Shown here piece by piece: positions 20,115 to 35,170 of a stretch of DNA of 36,369 bases. The number at the start of each line of letters is the position of its first letter. Within the stretch, counting starts at the first letter, position 1. The stretch lies in assembly GCA_024641705.1 (NCBI GenBank), contig JAHECO010000035.1:1-36369 (forward strand), in the 5' to 3' direction. Both the position numbers and the translations under genes were made by a program. The notes under the pieces are model-generated. The model did no database searches and was not told where the DNA came from. It worked only from the letters and a program-made list of their open reading frames with translations. This DNA comes from Candidatus Kryptoniota bacterium (GTDB lineage: Bacteria; Bacteroidota; Ignavibacteria; Kryptoniales; JAKASW01).

Positions 20115-20238
20115 TGTGGGTTCCTTTCTTTAGGTGAAATCAAAATAATCCCCGGAAGGTGCCTGAACAAGTTCATAATCGATGCCTGGCGGCCTCGGAA
20201 GCTCTACCTGGGGGTGGAGGTTTCAACATTTTCCAGCA

Positions 20239-20267
20239 TTGGATTTATTTGCGACATCACTTAAAAT
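20239..20267 (+). promoter_or_regulatory. Candidate promoter of the FadL-like gene
   Basis: TTGGAT (20239-20244) and TAAAAT (20262-20267) are separated by 17 bases. The -10 element matches TATAAT at five of six positions, the -35 at three of six. It lies 35 bases before the start at 20302, with GGAGGT (about 20291-20296) in between. If the organism is Bacteroidota-like, its sigma factor may use other hexamers. Confidence 0.4.
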
Positions 20268-20301
20268 AGCGGCGTTAGTAAACCTAAAAAGGAGGTAGCC
20301 T

Positions 20302-29821: not shown

Positions 29822-31816
29822 ATGACAAAACTCGAAGAATTATGTGTTAATACAATCCGGTTTCTAGCTGTCGATGGGGTACAGAAAGCGAATTCAGGAC
29901 ACCCCGGGATGCCGATGGGCACCGCGCCTATCGGATATCTCTTATGGACGAAGTACCTGAAACACAATCCCCACAATCCCAAGTGGTCGAACCGCGACAG
30001 GTTCGTGCTCTCCGCCGGACACGGCTCGATGCTGCTGTACTCGCTTCTTCATCTAACCGGCTACAGGGTATCGCTCGATGATCTGAAGAGTTTCAGACAG
30101 TACGGCAGCATAACTCCGGGACATCCGGAATACGGCCTTACACCTGGTGTGGAGACGACGACCGGTCCGCTCGGTCAGGGGCTAGGCAACGCCATCGGGA
30201 TGGCGATAGCCGAAGAGCACCTTTCTGCCTATTTCAACCGTGACAGCTTCAAGGTTGTCGACCACCACACTTACGTCATTGCCGGCGACGGCGACATGAT
30301 GGAAGGCGTTACGAGCGAAGCGAGCTCGATTGCCGGGCACCTGAAGCTTGGAAAGCTGATAGTCTTCTACGACGACAACCACATAACGATCGAGGGCAGC
30401 ACCGAGCTCGCGTTCAGCGAAGACGTTCTCGCACGATATGCGGCGTACGGCTGGCACACACAGCGCGTCAGCGACGGCAACAACCTTGAAGGAATCGCGA
30501 AGGCGGTCGACACAGCAAAGGCGGTCAAGGACAGGCCGTCGGTGATCGCCGTCAGGACCCATATCGGCTATGGCTCGCCGAACAAGCAGGACACCGGCGA
30601 AGCACACGGCTCTCCGCTCGGCGACAAGGAAGTGGAGCTCACAAAGAAGAACCTCGGTTGGCCTGTCGAGCCGAAATTCCTTATTCCCGACGAAGCATTG
30701 AAAGTATTCCGTGCGTGCGTCGAGAGTGGAAAAAAGGCCGAAGAAGAGTGGAACAACATGTTCCGCGAGTACGAGAAGAAATACCCGGATCTCGCGGGTG
30801 AATTCCTCTCGTGGATGTCGGGTGAAGTTTCTCCCGATGCCCTGAAGGATATTCCTCAATTCGATCCTGCCGCCGGAGCGGTCGCGACGCGCTCGGCATC
30901 GGGCAAGGTCATCAACGCCTTTGCACCGAAGGTGAAGAACTTCCTGGGAGGGGCCGCCGACCTTGCACCTTCGACCGACACGCTCATGAAGGGGACGAAC
31001 TCCTTCTCGGCGGGCGACAGGCTCGGAAGGAACTTCCACTTCGGCATCAGGGAACACGGCATGGGCGCGATCATGAACGGGATGGCGGTGCACGGCGGAC
31101 TGATTCCCTTCGGTGCTACGTTCCTCGTTTTCTCCGACTACATGCGCCCGCCGATAAGGCTTGCAGCGCTTTCACATTTCAGGACGGTCTATGTCTTCAC
31201 GCACGACAGCGTCGGGCTCGGCGAAGACGGGCCCACTCACCAGCCTATCGAGCACTTCATGGCGCTGCGCGCGATACCGAACATGGTATTCGTCCGGCCG
31301 GCGGACGCAAATGAAACCGCCGAGGCGTGGAAGTTCGTGCTCGGGTACAACAAGGGCCCGGTGGCGCTCGCGCTGACGAGACAGAAGCTGCCGGTCATCG
31401 ACAGGAAGAAGTACGCGGGGGCGGACGGGCTGAAGCGAGGCGCTTACGTCATGGCGGAGTCGGGCGCTCCGGAGGCGATAATCATCGCCACCGGCAGCGA
31501 GGTCCCGGTTGCCATGGCGGCGTACGAGCAGCTTGCCGCGAAAGGAAAGAAGGTCCGCCTGGTCAGCATGCCGAGCTGGGAAGTGTTCGACATGCAGGAC
31601 GAGAATTACCGCGAATCGGTGCTTCCTTCCGGCGTAACGAAGAGGGTGTCGATCGAAGCTGGCATCACGAAGGGTTGGAGCCGTTACATCGGCAGTAAAG
31701 GTATCGCGATAGGCATCGACCACTTCGGTGCCTCGGCCCCGGGCGACGTGGTGATGAAGGAGTTCGGCATCACCGGCGACGCCGTTGTCTCGGCGGTGGA
31801 GAAGCTGCTCGGCTGA
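29822..31816 (+). CDS. tkt: Transketolase
   Basis: A 664-residue thiamine-diphosphate enzyme of the pentose phosphate pathway that moves two-carbon units between sugar phosphates. Visible motifs are [10 protein letters not shown] (residues about 22-31), the substrate-binding [16 protein letters not shown], the ThDP/Mg site [19 protein letters not shown] with YDDN, and in the second domain [40 protein letters not shown] and [12 protein letters not shown]. The third domain ends with [12 protein letters not shown]. The length is standard and all catalytic His residues expected in the HxxxG and REHGM motifs are present. AGAGGTC is 10-15 bases upstream of ATG 29822. The gene is followed after five bases by the start of a secreted protein gene, which may be in the same transcript. 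Confidence 0.96.
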
Positions 31817-31821
31817 ACGTC

Positions 31822-32595
31822 GTGAAGAAGGCAATCGTACTTCTGACCTTCGGTTCGTGGATGGCGGTTCTGTGCGGCTCAAATATTTGCCGTGCACAGG
31901 ACGAGTATGACTCCGATACTTCCCCATGTGCTCATCCGATATCCTGGTTGAAGGAGAATTGCTGCGCAATCGTGGACTCCGCCGCCTCCGGAAAGTGCAG
32001 GGTCGCGGAATTCGGGGAGCTCGGACGGATCGGAGACGACGCCTACTATTACGCGATCTATGTGGGCGCACAGCGTGATGAAGACAGCGCGACTGGATCA
32101 GGCGGCGGGCTTGACAATTACTACCGCGAGGCGAGAGTCTTTGAGAGTGTAGGGAATACAGATTCGGCTACTTCAATCTTCGGATGGGGTGCGCGGGTAT
32201 ACGATTTCTGGGTAGACAGGCCGGTGCTTGTCAGTAGCAAGTACGGGACATTCCTGCACGTCTTCATAACCTCGGGAAACGGCGGCTGGGAGATGGGACA
32301 TTACTACATCTACAGAGGCCATAAGTGGGTCGAGCTCAGTTACGAAGATTGGCTGGACGGAGAATCATGGGGCGGTCTTGTCAAGAAGACTCTCCCAAGC
32401 GGGTACTGGCTTTGCAGGGGCAACGAAATCGATCTCCGGAGTATGGAGATAACGTTCCCGGTATACAAATCGAACGACCCGTGCTGCTGTCCGACGGGAG
32501 GAACGCTGATGGTCAAATTGAAGCTTGAAGCGGACAGTATAGCCGTCGACTCGTGTCACTACTCTCCGAAGGAATGGGAATACCACAGAAACTGA
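31822..32595 (+). CDS. Secreted cysteine-rich protein of unknown function
   Basis: A 257-residue protein that I do not recognise. The signal peptide MKKAIVLLTFGSWMAVLCGSNICRAQDE ends after CRA, before QDE, so export is expected. The mature part has several Cys: SPCAHP and ENCCAIV early, KCRV, WLCRG, DPCCCP and SCHY late. The paired CC and CCC clusters could form disulfides or bind metal. It is rich in Trp, Tyr and Gly (GNGGWEMGHYYIYRGHKWVELSYEDW) and contains beta-type stretches, compatible with a periplasmic or surface beta-fold. GTG 31822 starts it, five bases after transketolase, without a clear ribosome site. Its position at the edge of the accessory region, next to a serine hydrolase, gives no firm clue to its job. 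Confidence 0.55.
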   Translation: MKKAIVLLTFGSWMAVLCGSNICRAQDEYDSDTSPCAHPISWLKENCCAIVDSAASGKCRVAEFGELGRIGDDAYYYAIYVGAQRDEDSATGSGGGLDNYYREARVFESVGNTDSATSIFGWGARVYDFWVDRPVLVSSKYGTFLHVFITSGNGGWEMGHYYIYRGHKWVELSYEDWLDGESWGGLVKKTLPSGYWLCRGNEIDLRSMEITFPVYKSNDPCCCPTGGTLMVKLKLEADSIAVDSCHYSPKEWEYHRN

Positions 32596-32621: not shown

Positions 32622-32705
32622 TTGCAGATGTATCCGTGAACAGATAAATTCGGACAAGGCAGCAGGGCATGCGGGCGAAGGTTAGCGGAATCTTTCCCCG
32701 GCAAT
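32622..32705. repeat. Intergenic direct repeat, copy R1
   Basis: This ~84-bp stretch aligns with 34071-34150. Exact shared blocks include GGCATGCGGGCG (32666-32677), AAGGCAGCA, GATAAATT and CCCGGCAAT. Overall identity is about three-quarters by eye. Indels are not multiples of three, which suggests it is not coding. The first possible ATG of the downstream serine hydrolase frame (32669) lies inside it. Confidence 0.7.
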
Positions 32706-32800
32706 CTGAGTATCGGCGATCCGCGTGGCCGGCGCACTCCGGGAATGCCTCGCGCGATATGCCCGGCGGCCGGAGCATCTTCCATATAACCTCATATTCT

Positions 32801-33904
32801 ATGAAAGACAGGGACAAGGAAGTATCTCAGTTTCTCGTCGAGAGGCATTTCAGGGAAATGCTGAAAAAGGACCGCAAGATTCACAGCGCGTTCCTGACGG
32901 CCCATTCCGGAAGACTTGGCATTCACCTTGACCTGGCCCAGGGGACAACCGGCGGCGAACCCGCGTCGCTGCATCAGCCCTACTATATCGCAAGCGTCGG
33001 CAAATTGTTTACATCCGTTCTGGTTGCGATTCTGTCGGAGCGGGGGCTGTTGTCATATGAAGACCCGGCTGCACTTTACCTTGACGATGAGGTGACGAAG
33101 GGCTTGCATGTATGCAAGGGCACGGACTACAGTCATGACATCAGGATAAGGCACCTGTTGAATCATACTTCGGGACTGCACGACTATTTCGAGGACAGGC
33201 CGGCGCACGGTAAGCGGATGATCGATTTGCTCCTCGAGGAACCGTCACGTTTCTGGACGCCCCGGGAGACGGTCTCGTGGTCAAAGAATAACCTGAAGTC
33301 GCATTTCCCGCCGGGGAAGGGTTTCCACTATTCGGATACAGGATATCACATCCTCGGACTTATAATCGAGAAGGTGACTTCGAAACCGTTTCATGAGGCA
33401 CTTTCGTCCCACATCTTCCGTCCGCTCGGCATGGCTCATTCCTATTTGCTGCAGCATTCGGAGCCGGAGATCAGAAGCGACTGCCGGGTAGCCGGCGTGT
33501 ATGTAGGGGAGACAGACGTCGTGAACTTTGTGAGCCTCAGCATCGACTACGCGGGCGGAGGGATCGTATCGACTTCCGACGATCTGCTCAAATTCATGGA
33601 GTCGCTGGTGCATCACAGGATTATCCGAAAGGATACATTCGATGGCATGAAGGATTGGGCCAGGTTCTTTCCGGGCATCGACTATGGGTACGGTCTGATG
33701 AGTATTCGGACCGTCCCTTTCTTCATGCCGCGGAAATACAACGCCTGGGGGAATGCGGGCTCGGTCGGGTCATTCATGTTTTACCATCCGGTTCTTGACC
33801 TTTATCTGATCGGAACCTTGAACCGGTTTCGCTATCATAGGAAGGCATTCAGACTGATGCTCAAGTGCATAGATATCTTTTCGAAGGCCGGGCACTCTTC
33901 ATAA
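32801..33904 (+). CDS. Beta-lactamase-fold serine hydrolase (PF00144-like)
   Basis: A 367-residue protein. The nucleophile motif SxxK is SVGK at residues 65-68, in YYIASVGKLFTSVLVA. The second region is NHTSGLHDYF, and GKGFHYSDTGYHILGLIIEKVT supplies the Tyr of the usual YxN; here it reads YSDT, so the Asn is missing. GGGIVSTSDDLLKFM follows, and a C-terminal strand (WGNAGSVGSFMFYH) stands where the H/KxG motif is expected. The family includes class C beta-lactamases, D-Ala peptidases and esterases; specificity is not predictable. No signal peptide is seen from ATG 32801, so it is probably cytosolic or exported by other means. A longer start at 32669 falls inside a repeat and is less likely. 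No strong ribosome site was found. Confidence 0.8.
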   Translation: MKDRDKEVSQFLVERHFREMLKKDRKIHSAFLTAHSGRLGIHLDLAQGTTGGEPASLHQPYYIASVGKLFTSVLVAILSERGLLSYEDPAALYLDDEVTKGLHVCKGTDYSHDIRIRHLLNHTSGLHDYFEDRPAHGKRMIDLLLEEPSRFWTPRETVSWSKNNLKSHFPPGKGFHYSDTGYHILGLIIEKVTSKPFHEALSSHIFRPLGMAHSYLLQHSEPEIRSDCRVAGVYVGETDVVNFVSLSIDYAGGGIVSTSDDLLKFMESLVHHRIIRKDTFDGMKDWARFFPGIDYGYGLMSIRTVPFFMPRKYNAWGNAGSVGSFMFYHPVLDLYLIGTLNRFRYHRKAFRLMLKCIDIFSKAGHSS

Positions 33905-33939
33905 CTCTCCCTCCATCCCCCTCGCTTCGCATTTCACCC

Positions 33940-34030
33940 AGAGTCCGCGAAGAAGAAACCGCAGAGAACGCGAAGGGAAAATCTACTTCTTCTTAGCGAT
34001 CTTCGCGCCTCCATTGCGCTCCTTGCGTGA
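33940..34030. repeat. Structured intergenic repeat-like element
   Basis: The 326-base gap 33905-34230 holds no convincing gene. This part has CGCGAAG (33969-33975) facing CTTCGCG (34001-34007), and GCGAAGAAGAA (33947-33957) facing TTCTTCTTAGC (33987-33997) with one mismatch. The two stems compete. The ACCGCAGAGAACGCGAAG…TGCGCTCCTTGCG style resembles dispersed repeats I have seen in environmental bacteria. It is not assigned to a named element. Confidence 0.45.
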
Positions 34031-34070
34031 AACACCTTAGGGCCTACTCAGGCCTGGTCATATGGACAGC

Positions 34071-34150
34071 TTGCACATCTGACCATGAACGGATAAATTT
34101 CGCGGAAGGCAGCACGGCATGCGGGCGGGGGGATGAGCATTCCCGGCAAT
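34071..34150. repeat. Intergenic direct repeat, copy R2
   Basis: This is the second copy of the element at 32622-32705, in the same orientation, 1449 bases downstream. GGCATGCGGGCG lies at 34116-34127. It ends 80 bases before the DUF4386-like gene, much as R1 ends 95 bases before the serine hydrolase gene. The rest of the gap up to 34230 shows only the AGGGGG ribosome site. Confidence 0.7.
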
Positions 34151-34230: not shown

Positions 34231-34935
34231 ATGGAAACAATCGATCGGATGGACACTGCTGGAGTCGCGGGCGCGCAGTGGAAGGGAGTCTACAGGGTCG
34301 GCGGCATCGCCGCCATCGTCATGGCGGTATTCATACCGTTACAGCTCACCGTCTTCGTTATCTGGCCGCCGCCGGCAACGGTCGCGGGGTGGTTTGCGCT
34401 CTTTCAGCAGAGCGCGATCATCGGCCTCCTCAACATGGACCTCCTCCTCATCGTCGACCAGGTCCTTTTGATACTCATGTTCCTCGCTCTCTACTTTGCC
34501 CTCAGGGACTCGAGTCGTTCCTTCATGACGATCGCCGTCGTCCTGGGCATTGGAGGGGCGCTTATCTACTTCGCCTCGACCTCCGCTTTCGAGATGCTCA
34601 CGCTGAGTGGCAGGTTCGCGGCGGCAATGACTGAAGAGGAGAAGTCCATCATACTTGCAGCCGGAGAGGTCATGCTTGTCAACTGGCAGGGGACGGCATT
34701 CAATATCAGCTACGTCATGGCGGGGATCGGCCTCCTCATAACGGCGATCGTGATGGTGCGGAGCAGCGTCTTCGGAAAAGCAACCGCCTATATCGGGCTC
34801 GCCCTCGGCATCATGTCCCTCCTCCCGCCGACGGCAGGTATGGTCGGCGTGATGTTCGCGCTCGGCTCGCTCCTCCCGCTGGAAGTGTGGGATATACTTG
34901 TCGGCCGGAGGCTGCTGCAGATGGCGGGGAAGTGA
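34231..34935 (+). CDS. DUF4386-like polytopic membrane protein
   Basis: A 234-residue inner-membrane protein with about six to seven hydrophobic segments: near residues 24-46, 60-75, 78-92, 100-116, 157-178, 185-200 and 205-220. YRVGGIAAIVMAVFIPLQL near the N terminus and the later ISYVMAGIGLLITAIVM block resemble DUF4386 family proteins, whose function is unknown. A short charged loop (MTEEEKSIILAAGEV) lies between helices four and five. ATG 34231 follows AGGGGG by eight bases. The gene stands alone between repeat elements, with no obvious partner. Other small polytopic families cannot be excluded. Confidence 0.6.
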   Translation: METIDRMDTAGVAGAQWKGVYRVGGIAAIVMAVFIPLQLTVFVIWPPPATVAGWFALFQQSAIIGLLNMDLLLIVDQVLLILMFLALYFALRDSSRSFMTIAVVLGIGGALIYFASTSAFEMLTLSGRFAAAMTEEEKSIILAAGEVMLVNWQGTAFNISYVMAGIGLLITAIVMVRSSVFGKATAYIGLALGIMSLLPPTAGMVGVMFALGSLLPLEVWDILVGRRLLQMAGK

Positions 34936-34997
34936 GAATGAAAGCTTTCTCATGTGCACAGGGTGATGGATTTTTTGAGACTATCCCCAACGGCCTC

Positions 34998-35089
34998 ATT
35001 GTCATGCTGAGCGAAGCGAAGCATCCAGTCTTATGCACATACTGGATTCTTCGATCGTCACGCGAAGCGCGTGACTCCCTCAGAATGAC
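34998..35089. repeat. REP/MITE-like inverted-repeat element
   Basis: GTCATGCTGAGCGA (from 35001) and TCCCTCAGAATGAC (ending 35089) are imperfect inverted ends matching at 12 of 14 positions. GAAGCATCCAGT and ACTGGATTCTTC inside pair at 11 of 12. GTCACGCGAAGCGCGTGAC (35058-35076) is a further perfect inner palindrome around one central base. The style (GTCATGCTGAGCGAAGCGAA…CAGAATGAC) is known to me as a widespread intergenic repeat in environmental bacteria. No transposase is present. Confidence 0.7.
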
Positions 35090-35170
35090 CTTCCGTTACT
35101 TTTTACCCCCCGCAGAACGACAAAGACATTTCAGGGATTTGTCGTCATGGAGAAATCGGGACACTGCTAA

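Follow-up and report, generated by a model that had tools for sequence, protein, structure and literature searches.

Two unrelated neighboring genes of a Candidatus Kryptoniota genome are most likely preceded by copies of one promoter

Introduction

Why should two genes that encode unrelated proteins be preceded by the same sequence of about 85 bp? This question is raised by a locus of a Candidatus Kryptoniota bacterium (GenBank assembly GCA_024641705.1), which we analyzed within a window of 36,369 nucleotides, positions 1 to 36,369 of contig JAHECO010000035.1, to which all coordinates refer. The first copy, R1 (32622 to about 32706, plus strand), precedes a serine hydrolase gene; the second, R2 (34071 to about 34151, plus strand), precedes a gene for a DUF4386-like membrane protein. 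The first-pass annotation of this DNA regarded the repeat as a shared leader, which agrees with our results, whereas none of the four readings it offered (a regulatory RNA, an operator, an integration scar or the remains of a duplicated gene edge) fits them best. We propose with considerable confidence that R consists of one housekeeping promoter and the initial part of its transcript and occurs twice, R2 being native to the DUF4386-like gene and R1 having been copied to the hydrolase gene.

Results and Discussion

The R1/R2 repeat and the genes around it

The upstream neighbor of the variable stretch that contains the repeat is tkt (29822..31816, plus strand), encoding transketolase (TIGR00232, 908.8 bits). 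Between tkt and R1 lies ORF257 (31822..32595, plus strand), the 257-amino-acid product of which shows no match in Pfam, NCBIfam or PADLOC. Our genus set comprised 13 genomes, the genome of the window (G000) and 12 other congeners; a relative of ORF257 (36%) was found only in G008, so that the gene is present in two of these 13 genomes, its own included. R1 is followed by the gene for a β-lactamase/AmpH-like serine hydrolase (32801..33904, plus strand; PF00144, E 1.7e-42), which R1 likely drives. The gene likely driven by R2 (34231..34935, plus strand) encodes a membrane protein whose match to PF14329 (E 8.3e-6, 26.3 bits) lies just below the Pfam cut-off of 27.6. A start of the hydrolase at 32669, giving a longer N terminus, was rejected, since in three congeners the homologous proteins begin to align only at residues 1 to 6 of the product that starts at 32801.

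The local alignment of R1 and R2 scores 71, whereas 1000 dinucleotide shuffles average 17.5 and never exceed 31; the diverged direct repeat is thus genuine. Exact blocks common to both copies include AAGGCAGCA-GGCATGCGGGCG, and with gaps of 1, 3, 1 and 1 nt the alignment contains non-triplet indels. The likeness begins at a TTG (32622 and 34071) and peters out at CCGGCAAT (∼32706 and ∼34151). Beyond these borders the two flanks are unlike each other: the similarity of the downstream pair was equalled in 92 and that of the upstream pair in 264 of 300 shuffles. The description given in the first-pass annotation was accurate in these respects, from the long exact blocks and the non-triplet indels to the distances of ∼95 nt between R1 and the hydrolase ATG at 32801 and ∼80 nt between R2 and the DUF4386 ATG at 34231, and also in calling the two downstream genes (PF00144 hydrolase and DUF4386-like protein) unrelated.

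Two other sequence features were noticed in this part of the window. Positions 33930-34045, directly before R2, hold an inverted repeat-like sequence (CCGCAGAGAACGCGAAGG ... CTTCGCGCCTCC), which is loosely resembled by the stretch before R in the congener G009 (24 of 300 shuffles equal it). The intergenic positions 34980-35095, which translate as LSEAKHP...ILRSSREARDSLRMTF, form an imperfect palindromic repeat, presumably of a kind that many metagenome genomes related to Bacteroidota contain.

R is restricted to one locus, with an ortholog in a congener

R occurs twice in the 4.6 Mb of its own genome. The lack of further copies had been named in the first-pass annotation as a sign of a chance remnant; one more copy was found, in the relative G009. 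Among the 13 genomes of the genus, a profile trained on R1, R2 and the copy of G009 detected only G000 and G009 above noise and nothing else below E 0.05. R1, itself a training sequence, scores 80.2 bits against this profile. Eight further matches in congeners, at E 0.05 to 0.41, were taken as chance, as was a weak match in G092 (E 0.0056), the only one besides the own genome and G009 in a profile search of 294 genomes of the class. A blastn search with R2 against 100 genomes gave a match at E ≤1 in 53, of which outside G000 only that in G009 was strong (6.4e-17), followed by one at 0.0026. When the core pattern was run over the genome contigs, 34 stretches were obtained, among which only the G009 record was a full profile match (92.9 bits; all others ≤22.4 bits). 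No copy of R was present in the plasmids, phages or viral contigs searched. Since no copies were found beyond G000 and G009, R is assigned to a single locus and does not represent a dispersed family. A dispersed, REP-like repeat would require many copies per genome and was discarded on the two copies in 4.6 Mb, and a mobile repeat because R is local, with no copies elsewhere.

All 13 genomes of the genus, the own one included, contain tkt, and the stretch that follows it varies. In G000, the order after tkt is ORF257, R1, hydrolase, R2 and DUF4386. In G009, tkt is followed by ∼234 nt, a single R in the same orientation, ∼75 nt and DUF4386, and no hydrolase gene was detected anywhere in this genome at E 1e-20. 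The hydrolase gene adjoins tkt without R in G003, G010 and G012. Relatives of DUF4386 are encoded in seven of the 13 genomes, of which only G000 and G009 show R above noise. As R accompanies DUF4386 in both R-bearing genomes, the additional copy is R1. Identity between R2 and the G009 copy amounts to 66 of 80 ungapped positions, and the sequence downstream of the G009 copy matches that of R2 (equalled in none of 300 shuffles) and not that of R1 (51 of 300). R2 is, judging by sequence, orthologous to the G009 copy.

A leader peptide starting from the ATG within R was considered and rejected: the frame ends with a stop after five codons in R2, continues in R1 into that of the hydrolase, and in G009 opens an unrelated frame of 76 amino acids. 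Given three differing frames, such a peptide is not conserved.

R matches a promoter motif derived from the genome

We derived a promoter motif from a sample of 326 kb of the own genome (the window and 20 stretches, L120 to L139), in which 228 genes were called by a simple codon score and 114 upstream intergenic regions were taken; the matrix was trained on 112 of these, excluding R1 and R2. A scan of TTG-Nd-TAnnTT over all spacings gave one sharp peak at d=20, where 22 sites were found without R1 and R2, compared with a background of 2.0 per spacing (Poisson P 5.5e-16). TTG-N20-TAnnTT is likely the housekeeping promoter of this genome. The one tRNA in the sample agrees with this assignment (n=1), with a matrix match of 12.1 bits that ends 15 nt before the tRNA. 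A literature search retrieved no paper on Ignavibacteria promoter motifs.

R1, R2 and the G009 copy all contain TTG-N20-TA-ATT in register on the coding strand, and in all three the distance to the start codon is 75 to 95 nt. They reach matrix scores of 13.5, 15.2 and 9.6 bits, respectively (equalled or exceeded in 0, 0 and 3 of 1000 shuffles), compared with antisense scores of 3.9, 0.9 and 2.3. The predicted –33 box of R1 is the TTG at 32622..32624, or TTTG with the preceding T, and its predicted –7 box is the TAAATT at 32645..32650; the corresponding boxes of R2 are the TTG at 34071..34073 and the TAAATT at 34094..34099 (all plus strand). In both copies the TAAATT follows exactly 20 nt after the TTG, as in the learned geometry, and the left edge of the homology between R1 and R2 is the –33 TTG itself.

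The Bacteroidota sigma-A consensus is given as –33 TTTG / –7 TAnnTTTG (PMC2483708, PMC9723704), with the –7 box placed at –12 to –5 (PMC9723704). From this placement, transcription is predicted to start near 32657 and 34106, so that both transcripts would begin, at their 5′ ends, with the conserved 19-mer AAGGCAGCASGGCATGCGG (32656..32674 in R1, 34106..34124 in R2, plus strand; also in the G009 copy). R resembles this promoter by its TTG and TA..TT boxes at the usual separation, R1 even having TTTG. R2 reads TAAATTTC, G009 TATATTTC and R1 TAAATTCG; at the –7 box, each copy has five of the six bases fixed in TAnnTTTG, so that none has the strict form, and the final G is absent as a feature from the matrix learned for this genome. 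Unlike the promoter as described there, R adds a conserved leader of ∼50 nt.

About 30 nt upstream of R, G009 contains a second promoter match of 13.1 bits, above the 9.6 bits of R, which suggests that tandem promoters may precede DUF4386 in this genome.

R is conserved like an ordinary promoter with its leader

The core of R2 agrees with that of the G009 copy at 49 of 57 positions, compared with 110 of 290 fourfold sites of tkt and 18 of 29 in a piece of DUF4386, which argues that R is constrained. Part of this conservation could be explained by a recent transfer, since the silent sites of DUF4386 (34231-34460) are less diverged between G000 and G009 than those of tkt (18/29 versus 110/290, P 0.016) and the R core differs from the DUF4386 silent sites at a P of only 0.026. 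The silent sites hint at a transfer of the DUF4386 end. The best-kept part of R spans the –7 box and the bases up to about +20, where R2 and G009 share 29 of 30 bases (positions 20 to 49).

As a single control, we used an unrelated divergent promoter region of the window (20115 to 20301), for which a match was found in 11 of the 13 genomes, the own one included. Its minus-strand promoter, at 20174, shares 83% identity with G009 across a 65-bp block, which starts at the –33 box and passes through the leader into the gene. Because this one control is conserved likewise, the length, identity and left edge of R are those of an ordinary promoter plus leader between these species.

Alternative explanations for the repeat

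The possibility that survives best, although we give it a less than even chance, is that a hydrolase module lies between R1 and R2 and can be lost or gained by homologous recombination between them, with G009 representing the deleted state. Such a recombination hinge concerns the history of the locus and is compatible with R being a promoter. The core contains 11 informative sites (columns 5 to 58), at which the G009 copy is R1-like at the first three and R2-like at the next eight (P 0.006 for this order), as a deletion requires. The R2-like downstream flank of the G009 copy points in the same direction, as does the tkt protein tree, which places G009, itself without hydrolase, among hydrolase-bearing genomes. 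However, the sites number just 11, the pattern is mixed and the alignment gapped beyond the core, the supports in the tkt tree are weak (80/69 and 80/78), and the upstream flank of G009 clearly resembles neither that of R1 (41 of 300 shuffles) nor that of R2 (24 of 300). An ancestral order of R1-hydrolase-R2-DUF4386, followed in G009 by a deletion through recombination between the promoters, is no more than suggested by these data.

It is doubtful that R is a co-regulated promoter in which the 19-mer acts as an operator or leader element through which one regulator controls both the DUF4386-like gene and the hydrolase. Apart from one S position, R1, R2 and G009 share the same 19-mer, which falls into the best conserved stretch of R, but the leader of the control promoter is likewise well conserved, and no regulator gene was seen among the immediate neighbors. 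Within the genome the 19-mer has no other promoter-borne copy: five further matches (3 mismatches), compared with one control match, all lie within long open frames, which led us to reject a wider regulon. The operator proposed in the first-pass annotation would be a local one at most. A combined version, in which a promoter plus 5′ operator or leader copied to the neighbor would have created a two-gene regulon, the copies also serving as the recombination hinge that lost the hydrolase in G009, appears still less probable.

We consider it very unlikely that R is a structured regulatory RNA, a riboswitch-like leader common to the two genes. The second half of R is predicted to be transcribed and small hairpins are conceivable close to its 3′ end, but transcription is predicted to start only ∼35 nt into the shared block. 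No Rfam family was detected at gathering thresholds, and permissive thresholds gave one match, at E 4.2 and outside R. Folding of both strands of R and of the predicted transcripts revealed no excess: the z-scores are 0.04 for R1 and 0.37 for R2, and 0.07, –0.24 and 0.55 from the predicted transcription start. Compensatory changes on both sides affect one of 21 predicted pairs, in a comparison of three sequences only.

Equally improbable is a relic without function, left by chance or by a duplicated gene edge. R has few copies at a single locus, as a relic might, but its core matches G009 at 49/57 positions, whereas 38% of tkt fourfold sites do, and it shows exact promoter geometry. The mismatches number 5, 5 and 4 at the first to third codon positions; they hence lack codon periodicity, which speaks against a gene edge. 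An integration scar is disfavored by the absence of R from the plasmids, phages and viral contigs searched and by the hydrolase gene that stands beside tkt without R in three congeners; the same three genomes, together with the lack of a folding excess on either strand (RNA parameters), speak against an integron attC site or cassette.

A promoter probably copied to the neighboring gene

Taken together, the two unrelated neighboring genes most likely appear to be started by one signal. Each copy of R would provide the standard –33/–7 elements, a TTG and a TAAATT separated by 20 nt, with a conserved 5′ transcript end behind them. R2 would natively serve the DUF4386-like gene, and R1 would be a second copy that may give the hydrolase gene its own transcription start behind the tkt-ORF257 pair. 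We infer that R1 arose by copying of R2 and not the reverse. The visible 85-bp repeat would then be the part kept by selection, while other duplicated flanks have presumably decayed.

Some observations speak against a promoter. No matching promoter precedes the hydrolase gene in G003, G010 and G012 (best scores 4.3, –3.3 and 4.4), and the hydrolase may thus not need one. Conservation does not stop at the –7 box but continues into the transcript, an extension superfluous for a bare promoter, and the G009 copy reaches only 9.6 bits, less than the site ∼30 nt upstream of it.

In horizontal regulatory transfer, or promoter switching, a regulatory region moves or is copied apart from the gene that it serves. 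The copying proposed here is similar in this respect; unlike in horizontal transfer, the copy lies next door in the same genome, and its direction is deduced. Our literature search found no paper on the duplication of upstream regions.

A duplicated promoter would explain the puzzling repeat as its visible, selected part. The locus would thus add a modest example of a promoter being copied, and a relative may provide a case of deletion by recombination between two promoters. The consensus TTG-N20-TAnnTT provides a data-derived promoter motif for an uncultured group of Bacteroidota, which helps to annotate their operons.
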